This document shows positions 42,307 through 52,828 of a stretch of 64,000 nt of DNA, in pieces (within the stretch, counting starts at the first letter, position 1; every line of letters starts with the position of its first letter). The position numbers and the translations under genes are program-made. The notes beneath the pieces are model-generated. The model had not been told where the DNA came from, searched no databases, and saw nothing but the letters and a program-made list of their open reading frames with translations. The stretch comes from Phaeobacter sp. CECT 5382 (GTDB taxonomy: Bacteria; Pseudomonadota; Alphaproteobacteria; Rhodobacterales; Rhodobacteraceae): contig NZ_CYSG01000004.1 of NCBI RefSeq assembly GCF_001457775.1, forward strand, positions 124,001 to 188,000, written 5' to 3'.

Positions 42307-42777
42307 ATGGGTTTTTCTGATCTGGATCGTTTCGACCGGGAGATTCTGAATGTCCTGGGGGCGGATGGTCGAATTTCCATTGCTGATCTTGCCCGGCGCA
42401 TTGGATTGTCCAAATCGCCGACGCAGGCCCGGCTCAGACGGTTGGAAAAGGAAGGTATCATCACCGGTTATCGGGCTTTGATAGATCCGATCCGGCTCGG
42501 GCTGGATCATGTCGCCTTTGTCGAGGTCAAGCTCGAGGATACGCGGGAAGCTGCCCTGTCAAAATTCAATGCCGCGGTATCGCGGATCCCTGAGATCGAA
42601 CAGGCCCATATGATGGCGTCACATTTCGACTACCTGCTAAAGGTGCGCACCCGGTCTATGTCGGCCTATCGCCAGGTTCTGGGCGAAAAAATCTCCTCCT
42701 TGCCCTACGTCTCGTCGACATCGACCTACGTTGCGATGCAGGCCGTCAAAGAGGACGGCGGCCTGGCCCCGGTTTGA
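42307..42777 (+). CDS. putR: Lrp/AsnC-type proline utilization regulator
   Basis: About 156 residues. The HTH is ISIADLARRIGLSKSPTQAR; the RAM domain contains VAFVEVKLEDTREAALSKF and IEQAHMMASHFDYLLKVRT. Divergent from putA across a 126-bp A/T-rich intergenic region, exactly as putR in alphaproteobacteria, where it activates putA in response to proline. The stop codon lies within a short 16-bp tandem repeat. Confidence 0.9.
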   Translation: MGFSDLDRFDREILNVLGADGRISIADLARRIGLSKSPTQARLRRLEKEGIITGYRALIDPIRLGLDHVAFVEVKLEDTREAALSKFNAAVSRIPEIEQAHMMASHFDYLLKVRTRSMSAYRQVLGEKISSLPYVSSTSTYVAMQAVKEDGGLAPV

Positions 42778-42796
42778 GTCGGCCCCGGTTTGAGTT
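42765..42796. repeat. 16-bp tandem repeat across the putR stop
   Basis: GGCCCCGGTTTGAGTC and GGCCCCGGTTTGAGTT lie in tandem, with a third partial copy GGTCCCGGTT after them. The first copy contains the putR TGA. Confidence 0.85.
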
Positions 42797-43145
42797 GGTC
42801 CCGGTTCCGCCTTGGGCGATGCATCGCTTTGGGCAATCATCGACGAAAAACAAGAGCAACAATGGCGCCAGGTTGACGCAGCACCGACTGAGCAGGATTG
42901 ATCCGATTGGCACTCTCCATAGGGAGCCCCCTGCTGGGCGCATCAAATTGCGGACGCGAAAAATTGATTTGCCAGCTGGGGGCGGATTTTTGCAGCATCA
43001 TCATATGCTTTTTTTTGCCCAGAAAATCCCGCCATCCCGTACCGACAGCCAGCCCCCCACTGGTGTGTTCCTGGCTCTGATTGTCGGACTGGGTTTGTTC
43101 GCGACTCTTCTCGTGCCTGCGGGCCCGGCGTTTGCCGAAAGCTCT

Positions 43146-43195
43146 GCCCAAAAGGGCCGAGATGATCTCTGCCCAAAAGGGCCGAGATGATCTCT
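43146..43195. repeat. Perfect 25-bp tandem duplication (two copies)
   Basis: The unit GCCCAAAAGGGCCGAGATGA plus TCTCT occurs twice in a row (43146-43170 and 43171-43195), followed by GCCC. Because 25 is not a multiple of three it shifts the reading frame between a signal-peptide segment upstream and the TPR domain downstream. Confidence 0.97.
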
Positions 43196-43719
43196 GCCCG
43201 GCCGCACCGGACCATAGTGCCACTTTAGACCGCTTAATCCGCGACGTTCAGCGTGCAAGTTCCGAGGCGGATGCGCGGAGGATTTCAAATCAGATGTGGG
43301 CCTTTTGGGCCCAGGCCCCGGATGCACGCGCGCAGGCCATTTTGGATCGTGGGATGACCCGGCGGGCGGCGTTTGATTTTCTTGGCGCATTAGCGGATTT
43401 TGATCTGCTGATTGCCTATTGTCCGGACTATGCCGAAGGCTACAATCAACGGGCTTTTGTACATTACCTGCGTCAGGATTATGCGACCGCTCTGCCAGAT
43501 CTGGATCGCGCCATTGCCCTGTCGCCGCGCCATGTTGCGGCCCTGAGCGGCAGAGCGCTATCGCTCTTTGGCCTGCAACGCATTTCCGAGGCGCGTGCAG
43601 CTCTGGGCGCGGCACTAATCCTGAACCCTTGGCTACCCGAACGCAGCCTTGCAATCCCCGGTGGAGCTTTGTCGCAGGAGCCAGTACAACCGGCTCCGCC
43701 GTCTGGAGAGGACCTATAA
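43162..43719 (+). CDS. Tetratricopeptide repeat protein, signal peptide separated by a frameshifting duplication
   Basis: The downstream frame encodes about 185 residues with TPR-type helices (GALADFDLLIAYCPDYAEGY, ATALPDLDRAIALSPRHVAA, EARAALGAALILNPW). It can start at the ATG at 43162, inside the first copy of the 25-bp repeat, with AAAAGGG just upstream. The other frame, from ATG 43005, encodes a convincing signal peptide (GVFLALIVGLGLFATLLVPA / GPAFAESSAQKGRDDLC) that would join the TPR part exactly if one repeat copy were removed. The ancestral protein was therefore probably exported, running from 43005 to 43719. The present form is either a pseudogene, a phase-variable gene or a cytoplasmic remnant. 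Confidence 0.75.
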   Translation: MISAQKGRDDLCPAAPDHSATLDRLIRDVQRASSEADARRISNQMWAFWAQAPDARAQAILDRGMTRRAAFDFLGALADFDLLIAYCPDYAEGYNQRAFVHYLRQDYATALPDLDRAIALSPRHVAALSGRALSLFGLQRISEARAALGAALILNPWLPERSLAIPGGALSQEPVQPAPPSGEDL

Positions 43720-43889: not shown

Positions 43890-43976
43890 GCGGGCGTGAT
43901 GGAATGGTAGACATACCAGACTTAAAATCTGTTGGGCCTTGTGCCCGTGTGGGTTCGAGTCCCACCGCCCGCACCA
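43890..43976 (+). tRNA. tRNA-Leu (anticodon UAA)
   Basis: Acceptor arms GCGGGCG / CGCCCGC, anticodon loop CTTAAAA with UAA, long variable arm (GGGCCTTGTGCCC), T-arm GTGGG-TTCGAGT-CCCAC and encoded CCA end. The accessory island begins directly after it. Confidence 0.97.
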
Positions 43977-44010
43977 AATTGCCGTTGAAAACATTGAATA
44001 AAGTGTGACT

Positions 44011-44238
44011 TTATGTGTTTTGGCCCCCACTCACTGTGGCGCTTTCCGGGGTATAGATCCCGTCAATTTGGGCAACGGAAAACACAGGCCGAGACCCTGG
44101 GTATGGATGATGTTTGTGAATCAGACCGTTTCTAACCATCTTGTAAAACGTGTCCCGACCAAAGGGCCAGCGTGGAGAGCGGATTGCCTGGATGCCAGTT
44201 ACAAACTTGGCTTCTTCTGGAACGTAAGCTGAAGTCAT
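44011..44238 (-). CDS. Excisionase/AlpA-like HTH protein
   Basis: About 75 residues. GRDTFYKMVRNGLIHKHHPY looks like the winged-helix/HTH_17 segment of excisionases and AlpA-like regulators. GGAGG precedes the start. It is the gene nearest tRNA-Leu, the position normally taken by xis and int in tRNA-integrated elements, but no integrase is present between it and the tRNA. Assignment is moderate because the family is short and divergent. Confidence 0.6.
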   Translation of the reverse strand: MTSAYVPEEAKFVTGIQAIRSPRWPFGRDTFYKMVRNGLIHKHHPYPGSRPVFSVAQIDGIYTPESATVSGGQNT

Positions 44239-44276
44239 AGGGCCTCCGGTTGCTGCTTAGTGACTGTTTGATCGTT

Positions 44277-44549
44277 TTAGCGGGAGGCCGCGCGTTCCAG
44301 TTCATCCAGACGCGTACGGGCTTGGTCGATAGTGATTTGATCAGATTTGCGTTTGACGAGAACGCCCAATGCAAGGAAGCAAGTGAAAATGAAGCCGGTC
44401 CATTGCATCGCGCTACTCTCCAGGACTGCGCCTGTCCCAATCAGGATTAGAGGGATCAGCGTGAAATAGAGCCGCGCCTTCCAGAGCGCTGGCGTCCGGT
44501 GATCAATGATGTGGATGAAGGTGGGATCAGTGGTGGTTTTTGCTGTCAT
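44277..44549 (-). CDS. Small membrane protein of unknown function (phage-type)
   Basis: About 90 residues with two hydrophobic spans (ARLYFTLIPLILIGTGAVLE, WTGFIFTCFLALGVLV) and a basic/acidic C-terminal helix (DQARTRLDELERAAS). The ATG at 44549 overlaps the methyltransferase stop (ATGA) and has GGAG upstream, so it belongs to the same transcription unit. I do not recognise a family. Confidence 0.7.
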   Translation of the reverse strand: MTAKTTTDPTFIHIIDHRTPALWKARLYFTLIPLILIGTGAVLESSAMQWTGFIFTCFLALGVLVKRKSDQITIDQARTRLDELERAASR

Positions 44550-44995
44550 GTGAGGCTCCATTTAACGGGTGCGGTTTCCTGAAACTCCACCACGTTCTCC
44601 AGCAGGATCACCTCGGGGCGAACAAGCTTGATCCAATGGGGTACGATCCAAGCCAGAGAGTGGCGGTTGCGGCAGACAGGCTTGCCGCCCTTGGCGCGGC
44701 TAAAATCCGTCCAATCTGGACTGGCCCAGAGCAGCCCGACCCGCTGGCCAGTCTTCACCAGGTCGCGCGGATCTACAGCATGCACTGATGTAATCCGGTG
44801 TTCGGTCTTTGGGTGGTTGGCGGCATGTAGGGAGAGGGCGGTTTCGCAGTGGTTGATCGCGAAATGCGGCTCAATTCCGAGTGCTGTGGCTATTCCGGTC
44901 GAGGCACCGCCACCACCGGCAAATAAATCCGCTATGATGGGCTGCGAAACCGGAGCCGGTTGCGCTAGGTCTTCTGGGTTGAAAAGGGAGGTCAT
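44546..44995 (-). CDS. Truncated DNA cytosine C5-methyltransferase with Trp at the catalytic Cys position
   Basis: About 149 residues. Motif I (SAM binding) is ADLFAGGGGASTGIATAL; motif IV, which in this phage-type family normally carries a Pro-Asp-Cys or Pro-Cys nucleophile, reads WASPDWTDFSRAKGG, with Trp (TGG) where Cys is expected; motif VI is VILLENVVEFQ. The protein stops soon after, lacking motifs VIII-X and the target recognition domain. It is therefore almost certainly inactive as a methyltransferase. It has a good ribosome binding site (GGAG) and may still be translated. It fits a decaying phage-like gene string. Confidence 0.82.
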   Translation of the reverse strand: MTSLFNPEDLAQPAPVSQPIIADLFAGGGGASTGIATALGIEPHFAINHCETALSLHAANHPKTEHRITSVHAVDPRDLVKTGQRVGLLWASPDWTDFSRAKGGKPVCRNRHSLAWIVPHWIKLVRPEVILLENVVEFQETAPVKWSLT

Positions 44996-45072
44996 GGCGG
45001 CTCCATCAAAGGGGTGCGGTTTGAGGTGTTACTGCAGTAACAGCCGGTCTGGCTGTCGATGCGGTTTCGGTG

Positions 45073-45318
45073 CTAGGTGGAAATTCCGGCGCGGATCATC
45101 GCGGCGGCAATTTCCTTGGCTTCCTTGGCAAGGGCGTCGTGCCAGTTCTCGGGATCGCCGGGGCGCCATTTGTAGCGGTTCGGGTGCGCAAGCATGCCTT
45201 TCATAGCTGCGGTTGCGATCCTCTCGACTTGGCTTGGGGGGACGGGAGGTTTGGCGTCCAGCAGGTTCTGAACGCGGTCAAGTTCGGCGCGGAGGCGGTC
45301 TAGTTCAGCGTTGGACAT
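45073..45318 (-). CDS. Hypothetical protein (phage-like gene string)
   Basis: About 81 residues. It starts with a helical Glu/Arg-rich segment (NAELDRLRAELDRVQNLLDA) followed by a compact domain containing HPNRYKWRPGDPENWHDAL. AGGAG precedes the start. No family recognised. Its spacing and orientation match its neighbours in the island. Confidence 0.65.
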   Translation of the reverse strand: MSNAELDRLRAELDRVQNLLDAKPPVPPSQVERIATAAMKGMLAHPNRYKWRPGDPENWHDALAKEAKEIAAAMIRAGIST

Positions 45319-45365
45319 GGTTTCTCCTGAGTTTCATCTATGCGCGCGTTCTTGGGGTGGGTGGG

Positions 45366-45626
45366 TCAGTTTTTACCTTCGGCGCGGCGCATGCGGCGGA
45401 TGCTTCGGCGCATGATGCTGGCGCGTTCTTCACGCATGGTCGCGAGCGCCATTTCCTTGCGCTGGATCCGGTTGTGCAGCCTCGCCAGTCGTTCAAACTC
45501 TTCCGGGTTGGTGTGGTGTGTCCATGGCGCGCCCAGGCCGAATGGCTCTTCCTTTTCGGCGGCGGGGGATTGCTCCAGTACAGCAGCAGCCAGTGCACGA
45601 ATTTCAGTTTCTGAGGTGTGCTTCAT
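45366..45626 (-). CDS. Hypothetical charged protein (phage-like gene string)
   Basis: About 86 residues, rich in Arg and Glu, predicted helical or coiled-coil in the C-terminal half (ARLHNRIQRKEMALATMREE). An alternative ATG lies 6 bases upstream. The ribosome binding site is weak for either start. No family recognised. Confidence 0.55.
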   Translation of the reverse strand: MKHTSETEIRALAAAVLEQSPAAEKEEPFGLGAPWTHHTNPEEFERLARLHNRIQRKEMALATMREERASIMRRSIRRMRRAEGKN

Positions 45627-45653
45627 GGTCATTTACCCAAACTTTCTGGGGGC

Positions 45654-45902
45654 TTAGCTGCGGCCCGCCCAGATCAGAAAATCAGTGTGCATTTCTTCAA
45701 ACGGCTGAAAGGCGTCGTTGTCAGTTGCCAGATTGCGGCGGCTGAAGACGCCGCAGACGGTGCGCAGGTGCTCGGTGGCGGCGGTCGGGCTGAACTGGTG
45801 GCCGGGGAAGCCGTTGCGGGTGGCTGCGTAACGCCGAAAGGCCACGTCATTGGAAAGCATGGCGGCGCGCATTGGGGCTTTGTCCTGGGTGATCTGCTGC
45901 AT
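45654..45902 (-). CDS. Hypothetical protein (phage-like gene string)
   Basis: About 82 residues from the ATG at 45902, which is preceded by GGAGG. Notable segment: LSNDVAFRRYAATRNGFPGH. No family recognised. The frame is open further upstream to 45986, overlapping the previous gene, but that start has no ribosome binding site. Confidence 0.62.
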   Translation of the reverse strand: MQQITQDKAPMRAAMLSNDVAFRRYAATRNGFPGHQFSPTAATEHLRTVCGVFSRRNLATDNDAFQPFEEMHTDFLIWAGRS

Positions 45903-45982
45903 AGTTGCCTCCTGTCGTCTGGTAGGGGCGCGGCTGTTGTCTGTGAGTGGTGGGCTTTGACGCCGCGCCCCCTGTGCAGCGC

Positions 45983-46309
45983 TCACACTGCGGGTGTGGC
46001 TGTAGATGCCGGGGCAGGGCCTGCGCCGTCGTAGGGGCAGTCTGGGCGGCCATCCGTGGCGCGCCTCTGTGATTTCCCGGCCCGCGCTTTGGTGATCCAG
46101 TTATCGATGGCCTCAAGACTGTCTGCGCCTGAGCCTTGGATGCCGTGAAGCGCTGCGCGGTGGGTCAGTGTTTCTGGCTCCCACCAATCGGTAGGATCAT
46201 CGCTGGGCGGTGTGAGGGTGCCGCCGAGGTCATGGAATTTCAGGATTTTGCAAAGGCCCTGCTGGCCGGTGATTTCCGCTGCGGCTGCGGCCAGTGTGTG
46301 AGGGGGCAT
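45983..46309 (-). CDS. Hypothetical protein, first intact gene of the phage-like string
   Basis: About 108 residues. The ATG at 46309 has GGAG eight bases upstream. Segments: LCKILKFHDLGGTLTPPSDD, ALHGIQGSGADSLEAIDNWI, ending in a Pro/Ala-rich tail. Its frame continues upstream into a serine-recombinase remnant (46310-46510), producing an apparent fusion, but the internal ribosome binding site shows it is an independent gene. Function unknown. Confidence 0.6.
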   Translation of the reverse strand: MPPHTLAAAAAEITGQQGLCKILKFHDLGGTLTPPSDDPTDWWEPETLTHRAALHGIQGSGADSLEAIDNWITKARAGKSQRRATDGRPDCPYDGAGPAPASTATPAV

Positions 46310-46675
46310 AATATACTCCAATGTGGCAGCCTTTTTCTCATAGGCACCGATCACTGAGCCATTGGTCGCGTTGATGATCCGCGCCAGCAATGAATCGATC
46401 TGCTTTTCAGCCGCAGTGATTTGCTGTTTGACGGACGCCTCTGCGTCTTTGATCTGTTCTGATCTGCTATCCCACGCTGCGTGGAACATGGTTCTCGCCA
46501 AAGCAATCATTGCCGAACTGGGTTCAAGAGTTTTGACGACTTCGCCAAAGGTGTCTTCTAATTTGTCACGGGGATGGATTTACCGTAGCTGCTACATGTC
46601 TTGGTTTGACACGGATAGTACTGATAATGCTTGTTTTTTGTACCATGAGGAGCGAAACGGCACAGGAATGATCTG
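46310..46675 (-). pseudogene. Serine site-specific recombinase C-terminal remnant (frameshifted)
   Basis: Two frames join to give a recombinase zinc ribbon and coiled-coil. First the ribbon-like segment HYQYYPCQTKTCSSYGKSIP (about 46630-46572). Then, after a one-base shift in a C run at about 46570-46573, come RDKLEDTFGEVVKTLEP and LARTMFHAAWD, followed by LLARIINATNGSVIGAYEKK. This matches the C-terminal region of large serine recombinases/integrases. The catalytic N-terminal and recombinase domains are missing, so the element's integration machinery is dead. Upstream it is joined to a truncated TraG gene. Confidence 0.8.
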
Positions 46676-47086
46676 CGTTGTGCCTTTGCCCGAACGCGTC
46701 GGGGCGACGGTCAGAAGATGTCGATCACCTTTGTAAGAGATAGCCCTGTGGTCTTCGCGCACGAAGGTTGACCCAAGCCGAATACCATCTGCACCAATGA
46801 CATTGGCTTCTTGCAGATCTTCAGCATTTGCCCAACGGCTAGACCCAAAGGTGGTTGGAACTGCCCCCCCCAAAACTACGAGACAAAGTAGCCACTCGAG
46901 GATGCCAGCTGCTGAGCGGGCAACCAAAATGGGCGGATTGTGGTCGTGTCCACCTTTGATGGTTTCGGGTGCGGGAATGGAGGGAATTGCCAGTTGCTTT
47001 GCTGAGATCTTGCCCAAAACACGCTTGGCGCAGGCGGGCGTAAGGTGGTCAGTGGTCAGGTGAGAGCTTTGTCCGTCCCTGTCCAT
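46592..47086 (-). pseudogene. VirD4/TraG-type coupling protein, truncated after Walker A
   Basis: The ORF from ATG 47086 (AGGAG upstream) encodes an N-terminal membrane segment (AAGILEWLLCLVVLGGA), then TFGSSRWANAEDLQEANVIG and LLTVAPTRSGKGTTQIIP, the Walker A region of type IV coupling ATPases. Homology ends just after Walker A; from about 46680 the sequence belongs to a recombinase remnant read out of frame. About 165 residues remain of a protein that is normally 500-700, so it is a pseudogene and a trace of a conjugative element. Confidence 0.8.
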
Positions 47087-47123
47087 TTTAGCTCCTAACG
47101 CTGCGTGGTGAAGTGAAGTTATG

Positions 47124-47166
47124 TCCAATAAAATGGCTATTCAGTATTTGTGTCCAAAATTTTAGC
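47124..47166. promoter_or_regulatory. Operator-like sites upstream of the 47266 gene
   Basis: TCCA-ATAAAA-TGGC at 47124-47137 and a half-matching TCCA-AAATTT-TAGC at 47153-47166, 29 bp apart, in the promoter region of the plus-strand unknown gene. They share the TCCA-N6-TGGA layout with sites at the two HTH genes nearby. Confidence 0.5.
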
Positions 47167-47265
47167 CATAGAAATCTCTGCTCCCAACGCAATTCCTTGT
47201 TGGGGTGTCTGAGTGTTAAGGCACAGCCTTGTTGGCTGTTTCGAATAGGAGAGAGGAAAAGTAGC

Positions 47266-48033
47266 ATGCGAACTGTTGAAGTTGCCGGGGCACTTGGCGC
47301 CCTGCGGGCGAACATGATGGAGGACGGCTTCACCATCAGGGAGGTCGGTGATGTTTCAACCATCCCTAGTTTGATCGAGAGAATTGGAAAGCCGTATCTA
47401 ACCCCAATATCCAACCCGCTGCACAATGACTTTACTGAGGGGAATTCAATTTGGTTGGTGGCAGAAAAAGACGGGGAGCCAGTCTACCTAGGGTGCGCCA
47501 GGCTTGAAGACTTGGGGAGTGAAAGCGTTAGCCGATATTGGTCGCGAGTTCTTAGTCGCGCATACTCCGAAGGAGGGAGGGAGAGTGTAATCGAGAATGT
47601 CCGTCCAGAGGTCGATAAGGCGCTGGGTGGAAGGATTGTCTACTTTGGGGATCTCTTTGTTAAGCTGAAGGGGCGAGGTTCAAGGAGGGCCTTGAGATCA
47701 TTTGTCGCAATTGGTCACTTGGCCGTTTCGTTGAAATGGAATCCGGATTGGATTTATTGTTTTGTGAGGGAGGCGGATATTCTGCGCGGTGCAGCCATCT
47801 TGTACGGCTTTACCACACTCTTTCCCAACCCCTTTCATTGGGTGGAGCCACCATTTCCACGTGATAACTCTGAGTGGTTGGCAGCCCTGCCGAGATCGGA
47901 AGTTTGGTACTGTGCCGAGGCCGCTTTGAGTGCTGCGAGGGGTGGCACTGGATCTCAAGAAGGTTTGAAGTCAAATCACCAGAAGAGAAAAGTTCAAGAT
48001 GAGGCTCGCCCCATCGCTACATTTGACGGGTAG
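47266..48033 (+). CDS. Unknown protein, possibly GNAT-like
   Basis: About 255 residues from ATG 47266, preceded by AGAGGA. Segments such as SIWLVAEKDGEPVYLGCARL and GGRIVYFGDLFVKLKGRGSR are reminiscent of an acyltransferase beta-sheet followed by the acetyl-CoA loop, then SFVAIGHLAVSLKWNPDWIY, but the match is weak. The base composition is visibly richer in A+T than the flanking core genes, which suggests foreign origin. Its 3' end overlaps the convergent HTH gene by 63 bp. Function not assigned. Confidence 0.7.
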   Translation: MRTVEVAGALGALRANMMEDGFTIREVGDVSTIPSLIERIGKPYLTPISNPLHNDFTEGNSIWLVAEKDGEPVYLGCARLEDLGSESVSRYWSRVLSRAYSEGGRESVIENVRPEVDKALGGRIVYFGDLFVKLKGRGSRRALRSFVAIGHLAVSLKWNPDWIYCFVREADILRGAAILYGFTTLFPNPFHWVEPPFPRDNSEWLAALPRSEVWYCAEAALSAARGGTGSQEGLKSNHQKRKVQDEARPIATFDG

Positions 48034-48699
48034 CAGCACGCGGATGAATTCCATTTTGACCCGAATGGGTTGATTGGGCATTTGGACGTCCAGAGATTCT
48101 AGGGATACTCTTGGGCCGCTCGTCAATGTACTAGAGTAATCAGCAACCCAGCGGGCCTTGAGTTCTTGATCTGGAACTGTGTCTAAGGCACGTTGCAGAA
48201 TTTCCCTGCTGGGTTGGTTCATTGTTATGGATGAGAGGCTTTTTGCACCTACTTTAAGAACCTTGAGTGTGGAGTCTTCAGGCTGAGTTGGTTTGTACTG
48301 ATCACAGTGATCAAGGTGGTCTCTAAATGCTTCGAACATGCCGCCAGACTTCGCGAAAACTCTGATGAGGCCGTCTGCGGTGGGTGTCTTGCCATTGAGT
48401 AGATACTGTCCTGTAATGGAGTCGCCAGCATGGTCTAGGAGCTTCGAGCTAGCGCTTGAAATTGTCGGTATCGGAGGTGCCATCCCGGCAAGGTAGTCAA
48501 GGGAAGTGCCGAGCAATCCTGCCACTCGGGCCATTCCGAAGAAGCCTGGCCCGGTCTGGGAGATATCAAGCCTCTTATCGTTAACAATGCTCCAAACGGT
48601 TTTCTTGCTTAAGCCTGCGTCTATGGACAATTTCCAGATGTCCTTTCTGTATTGGGATGAATCAATCGCCCCTTGAAGTCGACCCCTAAAACCCTTCAT
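47971..48699 (-). CDS. Helix-turn-helix regulator (XRE-like N-terminus)
   Basis: About 242 residues. The N-terminal region KLSIDAGLSKKTVWSIVNDK resembles a phage-repressor HTH; the remaining roughly 170 residues have no recognisable domain. A palindrome TTCCATAATTTTGGAA lies 11 bases upstream of the start on the coding strand, a good position for autorepression. A+T-rich like its neighbour. It converges with and overlaps the 47266 gene. Confidence 0.72.
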   Translation of the reverse strand: MKGFRGRLQGAIDSSQYRKDIWKLSIDAGLSKKTVWSIVNDKRLDISQTGPGFFGMARVAGLLGTSLDYLAGMAPPIPTISSASSKLLDHAGDSITGQYLLNGKTPTADGLIRVFAKSGGMFEAFRDHLDHCDQYKPTQPEDSTLKVLKVGAKSLSSITMNQPSREILQRALDTVPDQELKARWVADYSSTLTSGPRVSLESLDVQMPNQPIRVKMEFIRVLLPVKCSDGASLILNFSLLVI

Positions 48700-48709
48700 G
48701 AAATTACCT

Positions 48710-48725
48710 TTCCAAAATTATGGAA
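48710..48725. promoter_or_regulatory. Palindromic operator in front of the HTH gene
   Basis: TTCCA-AAATTA-TGGAA, an inverted repeat placed 11-26 bases before the start codon of the minus-strand HTH gene. Same core as the sites at 49214 and 47124. Confidence 0.6.
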
Positions 48726-48894
48726 TTAAGTTGCCTTGATTTGACCACATAGATCAAGCTAGAACAACCCATAGGTTGAGAGAAATTTGCATGGACCCGC
48801 TAGGGGGTGGAATTGAACGCGACTGAGTTCTGTATAGAGATTCTCGCAATGACGGAGCGGGAAAGAAAGGCTTTACGCTTCTACGGTGAGAGCT

Positions 48895-49203
48895 TCACTT
48901 TTTGTCAAGGAGAGACAAAATCCCATCACGAGCCTGAGGCTCTTTCTCCATCAGAGCCATTAAACGCTCTGTCTCTGGAGAGACCTCAAACCCAAACAGA
49001 ACGTAAGCGAGACTGAAGCCGTTGGCACTACAGATCTGTGCCAACTTTTGTACAGTTGGCTCTGCGCCACCTTTGATCACCGAGTGCAGATAGCCAGGGG
49101 TGCTCTCCCCTTTGATCGAGGCAACCCGCATGGATACGCCGTGCTCCTCTAGCAGGGCTTGAAGGCGCTCGCGCATGGCGATGGTGTCGTAGGTAGCTGT
49201 CAT
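48895..49203 (-). CDS. XRE family regulator, phage-repressor-like
   Basis: About 102 residues. HTH: LLEEHGVSMRVASIKGESTP / GYLHSVIKGGAEPTVQKLAQ, followed by LAYVLFGFEVSPETERLMAL, the hinge typical of short XRE repressors. The ATG at 49203 was chosen; the frame runs on to 49218 only through a TTG codon. Two operator-like sites lie just upstream. The genes a phage repressor would normally face on the other side of its promoter are absent. Confidence 0.8.
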   Translation of the reverse strand: MTATYDTIAMRERLQALLEEHGVSMRVASIKGESTPGYLHSVIKGGAEPTVQKLAQICSANGFSLAYVLFGFEVSPETERLMALMEKEPQARDGILSLLDKK

Positions 49204-49213
49204 TCCGGGATTG

Positions 49214-49253
49214 TCCAATATAATGGAAGGGTGTGCACGTCCTTTATTTTGGA
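49214..49253. promoter_or_regulatory. Two operator-like sites upstream of the XRE repressor gene
   Basis: TCCA-ATATAA-TGGA at 49214-49227 and TCCT-TTATTT-TGGA at 49240-49253, 26 bp apart centre to centre. The spacing resembles a repressor operator pair in a phage-type switch. Confidence 0.58.
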
Positions 49254-50041
49254 AACTTTACTTATCTAAAATAATAGATGCAACTTCAGGCGATGAAACA
49301 CGCAAAAACAATATGACTTGATAGACCCTGTGGTTCCTTTGGGGGGAGATCCTTGGCCTGATCAGGCGTGCAGAAGCCTTCTGTCACGCCGAGAACTGGT
49401 CTCAAGGGTATTTGGGGAAGCTTGTAGCGGGCGACGGCATGATTTCAAACCGCTTGGCCGCGACTGGAAAGGTGCAGGCTCGCTGGCTTCTACGAATTGA
49501 AGAGTACCCGGACCAACTTGAAGGGGGCATTGAAGAGGTCAAAGAGGTTGGTCAATGAGACCGCCTCAATTTCTTCAAGCCCTTGCAAAAAATAGCCCGA
49601 CAAAATGTGTGCGACAGCGAATGAGACGCTCCTCATAGCCATTTCTGCAGGATTGCACGTGCAAGCATTCGGGCTTCGTCGGTAGCGCGAGCCGCCCACG
49701 ATTTCTGTTGTGGATTTAAGGTAAAGTCATGATTCATAAAGGAACCCATTGGCTGGCCGATCTCGATCCCGGCCTCAACTTTCCCAGCTCTGCCGGGACA
49801 AGTGCGCAGGACAGGCTTGGGACATGATCTGGATTGGAGAGGCCGGGGCATGTGCCCGTTTTGGGACTGTGACCAGAGCATTTGAAAACCCTCTCCTAAC
49901 AGGTGATTCCGCGATTCTGCAGGTCAATCCTAAGCGCGTGCCGCCATTGCGGGTGGGCTGTGTATCCCCCTGTCTGGCAGGGGAATACACCATGTTTAGG
50001 CAATCAACCAGGTTCAGATAGGTTCGGCCCGGCTGTCACTC
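49254..50041. other. Stretch without a convincing gene between island and acnB
   Basis: Only short frames occur here. Two very short overlapping minus-strand frames at about 49490-49737 (34 and about 50 codons, stop and start overlapping) have no good ribosome binding site and no recognisable family. An imperfect inverted repeat GTGTATCCCC / GGGGAATACAC at 49960-49990 may end the acnB transcript. The stretch probably holds degraded element DNA. Confidence 0.5.
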
Positions 50042-52828
50042 TTAGAAATGAACCGAACGCGCGCCAGCTGGTTTTTCGACCGGCGGGGCAAACTTGGTCA
50101 GATCAATGCCCTCAACGGCAGCTTTGTATTCTTCCATGCTGGGCGTTCTGCCCAGAATGGCCGAAAGAACAACGACAGGCGTCGAGGCCAGCAGGGATTC
50201 GCCTTTTTTCTCGGTCGAATCTTCCACAACACGGCCCTGGAACAGGCGTGTGGATGTGGCCAGAACTGTGTCGCCTTTGGCGGCTTTTTCCTGGTTACCC
50301 ATGCAGAGATTACAGCCAGGGCGTTCGAGATACAGGATGTTTTCGTATTCTGTACGCGCCGCACTTTTGGGGGCGAAGTCGTCGAACTCAAAGCCGGAAT
50401 ACTTCTGCAGGATTTCCCAGTCGCCTTCTGCCTTCAACTCGTCAATGATGTTGTAAGTAGGTGCAGCAACAACCAGAGGTGCCTTAAACGTCACTTTACC
50501 TTCGGTCTTTTCGATGTTTTTGAGCATTTGGGCGACGATCTTCATGTCTCCCTTGTGGACCATGCAGGATCCGACAAAGCCCAGATCGACCTTTTTGTCG
50601 CCGCCATAGTAGGAAATGGGGCGGATAGTGTCGTGGGTGTAACGCTTTGATACATCGGCGTTGTTGACGTCGGGGTCAGCGATCATTGGCTCAATGATTT
50701 CGTCGAGATCGACAACGACCTCAGCGAAATACTTGGCGTTCTCATCCGGTGTCAGGGCAGGGTTCTCACCCGATCTGATCTCGGCGATACGCTTGTCTGC
50801 CTTGTCGATCAGGCCCTGAAGTGTCTGTGCTTCGTTGTCCATCCCCTTGTCGATCATGATCTGGATGCGGCCTTTGGCCAGTTCCAGCGAGCCGATCAGG
50901 GTCTCATCATTGGAAATACAGATGGAGGCCTTGGCCTTCATCTCGGCGGTCCAGTCGGTGAAGGTGAAGGCTTGATCCGCCAACAACGTGCCAATGTGCA
51001 CTTCGATGATGCGGCCCTGGAACACGTTGTCGCCAAATTGCTTGAGCATCTGCGACTGGGTCGCATGCACCACATCGCGGAAATCCATGTAGTCTTTCAT
51101 GGAGCCTTTGAAGGTCACCTTGACGGATTCAGGGATCGGCATGGTGGCTTCGCCAGTGGCCAGCGCCAGCGCAACAGTGCCGGAGTCGGCACCAAAGGCC
51201 ACGCCTTTGGACATGCGGGTGTGGCTGTCGCCGCCAATGATGATGTCCCAGTCATCCACGGTGAGGTCGTTCAGAACCTTGTGGATCACGTCTGTCATCG
51301 CCGGGTACGCGTCCTTGGGATCGCGCGCGGTGATCAGGCCGAACTTGTTCATGAAGGCCATCAGTTTCGGGATGTTGGCCTGGGCTTTGAGATCCCACAC
51401 GGATGCGGTGTGACAGCCCGACTGGTAGCCAACGTCCAGCGACGGTGAAATCACCGTGGCGGCCATGGCTTCCAGCTCCTGCGCGGTCATCGGTCCGGTG
51501 GTATCTTGCGAGCCTACAACATTCACCTTTACGCGCATGTCCGATCCGGCGTGTAAGGTCTCGCCCGGGGTGGTGCCGCGGGCATTGCGGTTGAAGATCT
51601 TTTCAACAGCCGTCAGGCCCTGTCCGTCAACCGACACCTCTTTGGAGGGTGCATAGGCAGATTCGAGCGGCTGTCCCAGCGCCTCGGCGGCAAATGTCTG
51701 CAGCTTTTTACCAAAGACCACAGCATAGGAGCCGCCGGCCTTCATGAATTCAGCCTTTTGCGGCGTAAAGGAGGATGAAACATCCACCAGCTCGATGTCA
51801 CCATCATAGAGCTTTTTGGTCTTTGTGTTGATGGTCAGCACCTTGCCCGTCTCGACCGAATAGGTCTGCTCCAGCACCGGATCACCGTTTCCGTCCAGAA
51901 GGGTATTGCCATCGGCATCGGTCTTTTTGACCCAGTTTTTAAGATCAAGACCTATTCCGCCGGTCACACCAACGGTGGTCAGAAAGATCGGCGAGATACC
52001 GTTGGTACCTGCGACAACTGGGGCGAAATTCACAAAGGGCACATAGGGGCTGGCCTGTTTGCCAGTCCACAGGGCGACGTTGTTTACGCCGGACATCCGC
52101 GAAGAGCCAACACCCATGGTGCCTTTTTCTGCGATGAGCATGACCCGTGCATCAGGATGGGCCTTTTGCAATGCTTGAATTTCGTCCTGGGCTTGTGGTG
52201 TGATCAAGCATTTGCCGTGCAGCTCACGGTCGGCGCGGGAGTGCGCCTGATTGCCAGGCGACAGCAGGTCGGTGGAAATATCGCCTTCGCCAGCGATATA
52301 GGTGACGACCTTGATCTCTTCGTCGATGTCGGAAAGTTTGGTGAAAAACTCAGCCCTAGCATAGCTTTCCAGAATGGCTTTGGCGACTGCGTTGCCAGCG
52401 GCATAGGCCGCAGCAAGGCGATCGGTGTCGGCTTCATACAGGAAAACCTGCGTTTTCAGAACCTCTGCAGCCTGATCGGCAGTGGCAGCGTCATCGCCCA
52501 GAGCGAGATCAAGAAGCACGTCGACCGAGGGGCCGCCTTTCATGTGCGACAGCAACTCGAAGGCAAAGGTCGGAGAGATTTCTTCGACAACGGAGGTGCC
52601 AAGAATGATCTCTTTCAGGAATTTGGCCTTCGCGCCAGCTGCGCTCGTGGTGCCAGGCAGGGTATTGTAGATAAAGAACTTGAGAGAGTCTTCCCGGTGC
52701 GCGTTTCCGGCATCTTTGATCTGCGCGATAAGCTCGCTTACGAGCGCGCCATCATCAATGGGCTTTGGGTGCAGTCCTTGCTCTTTACGCGTGGCGATCT
52801 CATTTAGGTAATCTGTGTACAAGCTCAT
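50042..52828 (-). CDS. acnB: Bifunctional aconitate hydratase 2 / 2-methylisocitrate dehydratase
   Basis: About 928 residues. The HEAT-like N-terminal domain and swivel domain come first (GEGDISTDLLSPGNQAHSRA, AEKGTMGVGSSRMSG), then the catalytic core with IIIGGDSHTRMSKGVAFGAD. The 4Fe-4S cysteines are in GFVGSCMVHKG and ERPGCNLCMGN. It interconverts citrate and isocitrate in the TCA cycle. The size fits alphaproteobacterial AcnB. No neighbour shares its function; it marks the resumption of core genome after the island. Confidence 0.96.
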   Translation of the reverse strand: MSLYTDYLNEIATRKEQGLHPKPIDDGALVSELIAQIKDAGNAHREDSLKFFIYNTLPGTTSAAGAKAKFLKEIILGTSVVEEISPTFAFELLSHMKGGPSVDVLLDLALGDDAATADQAAEVLKTQVFLYEADTDRLAAAYAAGNAVAKAILESYARAEFFTKLSDIDEEIKVVTYIAGEGDISTDLLSPGNQAHSRADRELHGKCLITPQAQDEIQALQKAHPDARVMLIAEKGTMGVGSSRMSGVNNVALWTGKQASPYVPFVNFAPVVAGTNGISPIFLTTVGVTGGIGLDLKNWVKKTDADGNTLLDGNGDPVLEQTYSVETGKVLTINTKTKKLYDGDIELVDVSSSFTPQKAEFMKAGGSYAVVFGKKLQTFAAEALGQPLESAYAPSKEVSVDGQGLTAVEKIFNRNARGTTPGETLHAGSDMRVKVNVVGSQDTTGPMTAQELEAMAATVISPSLDVGYQSGCHTASVWDLKAQANIPKLMAFMNKFGLITARDPKDAYPAMTDVIHKVLNDLTVDDWDIIIGGDSHTRMSKGVAFGADSGTVALALATGEATMPIPESVKVTFKGSMKDYMDFRDVVHATQSQMLKQFGDNVFQGRIIEVHIGTLLADQAFTFTDWTAEMKAKASICISNDETLIGSLELAKGRIQIMIDKGMDNEAQTLQGLIDKADKRIAEIRSGENPALTPDENAKYFAEVVVDLDEIIEPMIADPDVNNADVSKRYTHDTIRPISYYGGDKKVDLGFVGSCMVHKGDMKIVAQMLKNIEKTEGKVTFKAPLVVAAPTYNIIDELKAEGDWEILQKYSGFEFDDFAPKSAARTEYENILYLERPGCNLCMGNQEKAAKGDTVLATSTRLFQGRVVEDSTEKKGESLLASTPVVVLSAILGRTPSMEEYKAAVEGIDLTKFAPPVEKPAGARSVHF

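Follow-up and report, generated by a model that had tools for sequence, protein, structure and literature searches.

A frame-breaking 25-bp tandem duplication in a TPR gene of Phaeobacter sp. CECT 5382 and the probable recent loss of its exported product

An exact tandem duplication of 25 bp was found just after the leader of a gene for a small TPR protein, in the 64,000-nucleotide stretch of Phaeobacter sp. CECT 5382 DNA that we analysed (the window). We consider it probable, at roughly 0.7, that this recent duplication broke the reading frame and left a dispensable gene without its exported protein, in a way that slippage might reverse. The first-pass annotation had offered three readings of the locus (an export-versus-cytoplasm switch, a recent pseudogenisation and a sequencing error), and the second was the best supported of them: the copies were identical, the leader was in frame in 80 of 80 orthologues (the best 80 of 515) and 6 of 12 genus genomes lacked the gene.

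The array occupied positions 43142-43199 on the forward strand and comprised 2.3 copies of the unit CTCTGCCCAAAAGGGCCGAGATGAT with a 100% match. This confirmed the presence of a 25-bp duplication between the signal peptide and the TPR protein, as had been claimed from a first reading; the positions given then, 43146-43195, did contain two units, but in a shifted register and without the full extent of the array. When the window was shuffled 100 times, no shuffle matched the unit at three or fewer mismatches, which excluded a chance origin. In the 4.1-Mb genome, the unit was present solely as these two copies at the same tolerance, and a dispersed repeat or mobile palindrome was rejected as its source; the TPR locus likewise occurred only once. 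An imperfect palindrome of 21 bases also occurred twice in the array (43154-43174 and 43179-43199); it had one other genomic site, on another contig and with 3 mismatches, while two further matches on the reverse strand were the array's own palindromes read backwards.

Duplications of this class were ordinary in the DNA surrounding the gene: a census of the one contig that holds the window (331,768 bp, about 8% of the genome) counted 15 exact ones with units of 10-200 bp, a density of roughly one every 22 kb. The 25-bp unit was the longest of the 15 and stood at the top end of the size range, as the other 14 had units of 10-18 bp; in 10 of the 15, the unit length was not a multiple of three. 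The motif CTCTGCCC stands at the head of every unit and once more where the array ends, forming an 8-bp direct repeat that flanks a unit, and the repeat overlaps itself over 33 bp. Folded as single-stranded DNA, the array reached a predicted -16.7 kcal/mol (z -5.5 against shuffles). Together, the direct repeat and the quasi-palindrome would favour slippage.

The consequence of the duplication was visible in the reading frames. The signal-peptide ORF (MLFF...FATLLVPAGPAFAESS...; 43005-43190, forward strand) starts at ATG 43005, begins MLFFAQKIPPSRTDSQPPTGVFLALIVGLGLFATLLVPAGPAFAESS... and ends inside the second repeat copy at the stop codon TGA 43188-43190. The frame of the TPR domain (43162-43719, forward strand) lies one base off the leader frame and was open to 43719, encoding 185 aa from ATG 43162 with no visible decay. 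The frame arithmetic proposed earlier for the two-copy form was borne out, as 25 equals 1 modulo 3 and leader and TPR domain stand one frame apart. Within copy 1, the TPR-frame ATG (43162-43164) follows a Shine-Dalgarno-like AAAAGGG (43150-43156); this motif had also been described before, correctly as to its presence, with a gap given as six bases that we counted as five. Copy 1 alone supplies a start in the TPR frame, the ATG of copy 2 (43187) being in the third frame. Rescue by programmed frameshifting was rejected: C_CCA_AAA in copy 2 is read in the leader frame, and a -1 slip there would enter the third frame rather than the TPR frame. Only a +1 slip would reach the latter, and no +1 signal was recognised by eye, this search being visual rather than computed.

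The leader is, as judged by comparison with relatives, a part of this gene. A relative of the protein was encoded by 515 stretches in named genomes, and all statements on named relatives concern the best 80, which included Pseudophaeobacter, Leisingera, Ruegeria and Tritonibacter. All 80 carried an in-frame hydrophobic leader ahead of the TPR domain, and all 80 began the TPR part with a CP..DH motif. The best 11-residue Kyte-Doolittle score within the 35 residues before this motif, a measure of hydropathy rather than the output of a trained signal-peptide predictor, was at least 1.46 in frame in 80 of 80, and the other two frames reached 1.4 in 25 and 23 of the 80. In the window, the TPR frame reached 0.98; the leader frame reached 1.72 over 35 residues and 2.90 over 60. 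The window therefore departs from the orthologue group in that the leader just before the CP motif sits one frame away.

Synteny with these relatives was retained, and the array was not shared. The gene for an Lrp/AsnC-family regulator (lrp; 42307-42777, forward strand) lies upstream on the same strand in the window and in 76 of the best 80 relatives, the other four having no lrp match within the flank examined. At a TRF score of 40, none of the 76 syntenic upstream regions contained the 25-bp array and the internal start that it carries. The genome collections searched contain one genome per species, and no other strain of this species was found in them. The 25 bases at the array end had no exact counterpart in viral contigs, which yielded one partial relative of the protein (72% identical), and plasmids yielded only distant matches of 60-80% identity; among their 37 records, coverage of the query reached 80% in none. 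An insertion predating the duplication was considered from the residues SSAQKGRDD, which at first seemed to be missing in relatives, and was rejected, as the spacing from leader to Cys varies and two relatives (L032 and L072) have long linkers too.

Other short arrays were observed near the gene and elsewhere. Two more imperfect tandem arrays, with units of 16 and 17 bp, lie at the end of lrp (42765-42806, spanning the lrp stop codon, and 42808-42842), and three of the eight TRF arrays of the window, the 25-bp array included, fall within 435 bp (42765-43199). On the same contig, three exact tandem duplications with units of 10-11 bp occur within about 500 bp (G000:C4:216353-216838). Among relatives, other short arrays were found in 2 of the 76 syntenic upstream regions, too few to claim a duplication hot spot upstream of the gene.

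The downstream protein had TPR repeats (Pfam TPR_2, 2.2e-11, with TPR_9, TPR_1 and TPR_11 also above their cut-offs), and no NCBIfam model scored above its cut-off for it. The 185-aa product was predicted to adopt an all-helical TPR fold with a mean pLDDT of 93.5. Fold matches, among them MamA and co-chaperone TPR domains at TM about 0.5 over the query, and profile matches likewise identify the predicted structure as TPR and say no more about its function. In an alignment of 39 proteins (the window and 38 of the 80), Cys12 and Cys87 in window numbering were invariant, a pair that would fit a disulfide in an exported, periplasmic protein. The window protein was 62-75% identical to the 38 aligned relatives and kept the conserved residues, including the CP..DH start and the two cysteines; it changed 1 of the 48 columns invariant in the other 38 sequences, as did 10 of those 38. 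The original product was probably a small exported TPR protein, probably periplasmic, in which the leader preceded a TPR domain containing Cys-Pro.

The distribution of the gene in the genus suggested that it is dispensable. It was present in 6 of 12 genomes, the window's included (E 1e-20 or better), and lrp was present in all 12; the remaining genomes gave weaker matches at about 25-32% identity, which look to be different TPR proteins. A tRNA-Leu (TAA) gene (43890-43976, forward strand) is the downstream neighbour in the window and the right-hand landmark in most of the genus. In the six genomes lacking the gene, lrp and tRNA-Leu(TAA) were separated by 151-339 bp with no TPR match between them, and in gene-bearing genomes by 869-1230 bp where the tRNA was found; gene-bearing G006 had no tRNA-Leu in the stretch examined. 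Since the outgroup G016 has the gene, absence was read as loss. In a tree of lrp and putA, gene-bearing G005 grouped with five gene-lacking genomes (support 99) and gene-lacking G001 fell outside, which makes at least two losses in the genus likely on these sequences. Supports of 61 for the node uniting the five gene-lacking genomes and of 25-73 for deeper nodes lie behind this count and weigh against the loss reading. If nothing more than a recent break is involved, the window would show gene loss at an early stage, within a genus in which half of the searched genomes do not carry the gene.

Some traces of mobile DNA were observed around the tRNA. In genome G004 (locus L145), a partial second copy of tRNA-Leu precedes the complete one between lrp and tRNA-Leu, as if an element had integrated, as read by eye; the window itself showed no repeat of the tRNA 3' end. 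In the window, mobile-looking fragments lie at 44000-49900, between tRNA-Leu and the aconitase B gene (50042-52828). One of them, at 46592-47128, scored 20.0 bits against the first part of a T4SS coupling protein, marginally below the 20.1 that Pfam requires; another, at 44546-44995, is methylase-like and was named by eye.

By combining these observations, we infer a slippage origin, a loss of function and a possible return to one copy. The gene would first have encoded the leader and the Cys-Pro-containing TPR domain as one exported protein. Replication slippage, helped by the direct repeat CTCTGCCC and the quasi-palindrome, would then have doubled 25 bp just after the leader, and the exported protein would be lost because the frame shift stops leader translation at 43190. 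The reverse event could restore one copy at low frequency. The lack of visible decay in the TPR part makes a recent break probable. The same intact frame also counts against loss: the break must be very recent, or protein is still made from 43162, or one-copy cells persist. Two further points stand against the loss reading, namely that the allele is known from one assembly and that the Shine-Dalgarno-like AAAAGGG at the in-repeat start makes reinitiation possible.

A promoter-like stretch was read by eye at 42964-43004 on the forward strand (TTGATT 42964-42969 or TTGCCA 42969-42974, with CAGCAT 42993-42998), and six bases separate CAGCAT from ATG 43005, the window keeping the order CAGCAT-CATCAT-ATG. 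Of the 65 relatives with a single candidate ATG, 46 had CAT at 5-7 bases ahead of it, versus 401 of 7183 other ATGs, and a candidate ATG was preceded in this way in 56 of 80 loci overall (best 80 of 515). Across relatives L032-L111 and the window (42964-43007), the pattern TTG...CAT-N5-7-ATG suggested a leaderless message for the gene family. The TTG element, recognised by eye, and the CAT suggest a putative promoter from which transcription would begin at the ATG or close to it; if so, ribosomes would load at the leader ATG. The available part of a paper on leaderless messages (PMC4287350) contained nothing bearing on the TPR gene.

The RNA of the repeat region was predicted to fold at -49.6 kcal/mol over 111 nt (z -4.1), with ATG 43162 in a stem. 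Opening this ATG would cost 22.4 kcal/mol, a value equalled or exceeded by 4 of the 52 ORF starts of the window (median 12.4), which were listed mechanically and include spurious ORFs. The hairpin would be melted by ribosomes reading through the leader ORF, and these would terminate 26 bases beyond ATG 43162, so that reinitiation is possible. A little cytoplasmic TPR protein could possibly be made in this way, and it is not expected to replace the exported one.

An assembly or sequencing artefact, under which the organism would have one copy and an intact exported protein, was judged unlikely. The single assembly behind the allele and the undecayed TPR frame are both consistent with it, but an array of 58 bp should be short enough for ordinary reads to span, and the same contig holds the 14 other exact duplications described above.

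The export-versus-cytoplasm switch proposed in the first-pass annotation fared less well. A reversible change in copy number would have one copy giving the exported protein and two copies giving no export or a cytoplasmic form, often enough to matter, and we regard this as decidedly unlikely. Its positive evidence is confined to the anatomy: the 33-bp self-overlap and the strong predicted DNA hairpin would favour slippage, the TPR frame is intact and the in-frame ATG follows AAAAGGG. Reversible frame-breaking duplications are also known, as the available portions of three papers describe spontaneous duplications within ORFs of pneumococcal capsule genes that switch the gene off reversibly (PMC4243769, PMC2995930, PMC4022640). 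According to the part of PMC4022640 at hand, reversion occurred at about 1e-5 at most and isolates carried insertions of nine bases at longest. Slipped mispairing between tandem repeats is called well recognised in a portion of PMC3519483. A duplication does not guarantee reversion, however, as the accessible part of PMC6686034 describes reversion in an agr mutant that carried both a duplication and an inversion, and no revertants from another with a duplication. The failure to find the array in any of the 76 syntenic relatives, an in-frame leader in every one of the best 80 of 515 orthologues, the position of ATG 43162 in a predicted stem and the invariant cysteines, which would argue for periplasmic folding, all oppose a switch, and a gene missing from half of the genus genomes would be unexpected if a switch were kept. 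In the more specific form, in which hairpin-driven slippage of the quasi-palindromic unit would place the one-copy product in the periplasm and the two-copy product, reinitiated in the repeat, in the cytoplasm, we find the proposal highly improbable. Literature searches turned up the pneumococcal cases above, and among the papers listed, as judged by title and the opening of the abstract, none described export switching by tandem duplication. If switching were true, it would be an unusual way of changing a protein's compartment, through repeat copy number.

It is very doubtful that the protein was relocalised rather than lost, with ATG 43162 yielding a new and stable cytoplasmic form: AAAAGGG five bases before the start and the confidently predicted fold are in favour of this, but a hairpin is predicted over that start, the 80 orthologues (best 80 of 515) offer no precedent and cytoplasmic conditions would keep the invariant cysteine pair reduced.

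Reversible tandem duplications in pneumococcal cap3A, cap8E and tts were reportedly described by Waite et al. in 2001 and 2003. The window resembles the cap3A type in having an exact short tandem duplication that shifts the frame within an ORF. Simple-sequence contingency loci contain many copies of a short unit and give rise to phase variation. As in those loci, copy number in the window alters the reading frame near the gene start; unlike them, the unit is 25 bp long at 2.3 copies, and the array was not found in the 76 syntenic relatives. For the pneumococcal capsule, the portions of the literature available to us report a phenotype and phase variation, whereas the window presents one assembled allele. 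The window copy is orthologous to the small exported TPR protein that roseobacters encode beside lrp, shares the lrp neighbour and keeps the conserved residues, but has lost the frame of the leader, which is in frame in 80 of 80 relatives (best 80 of 515).
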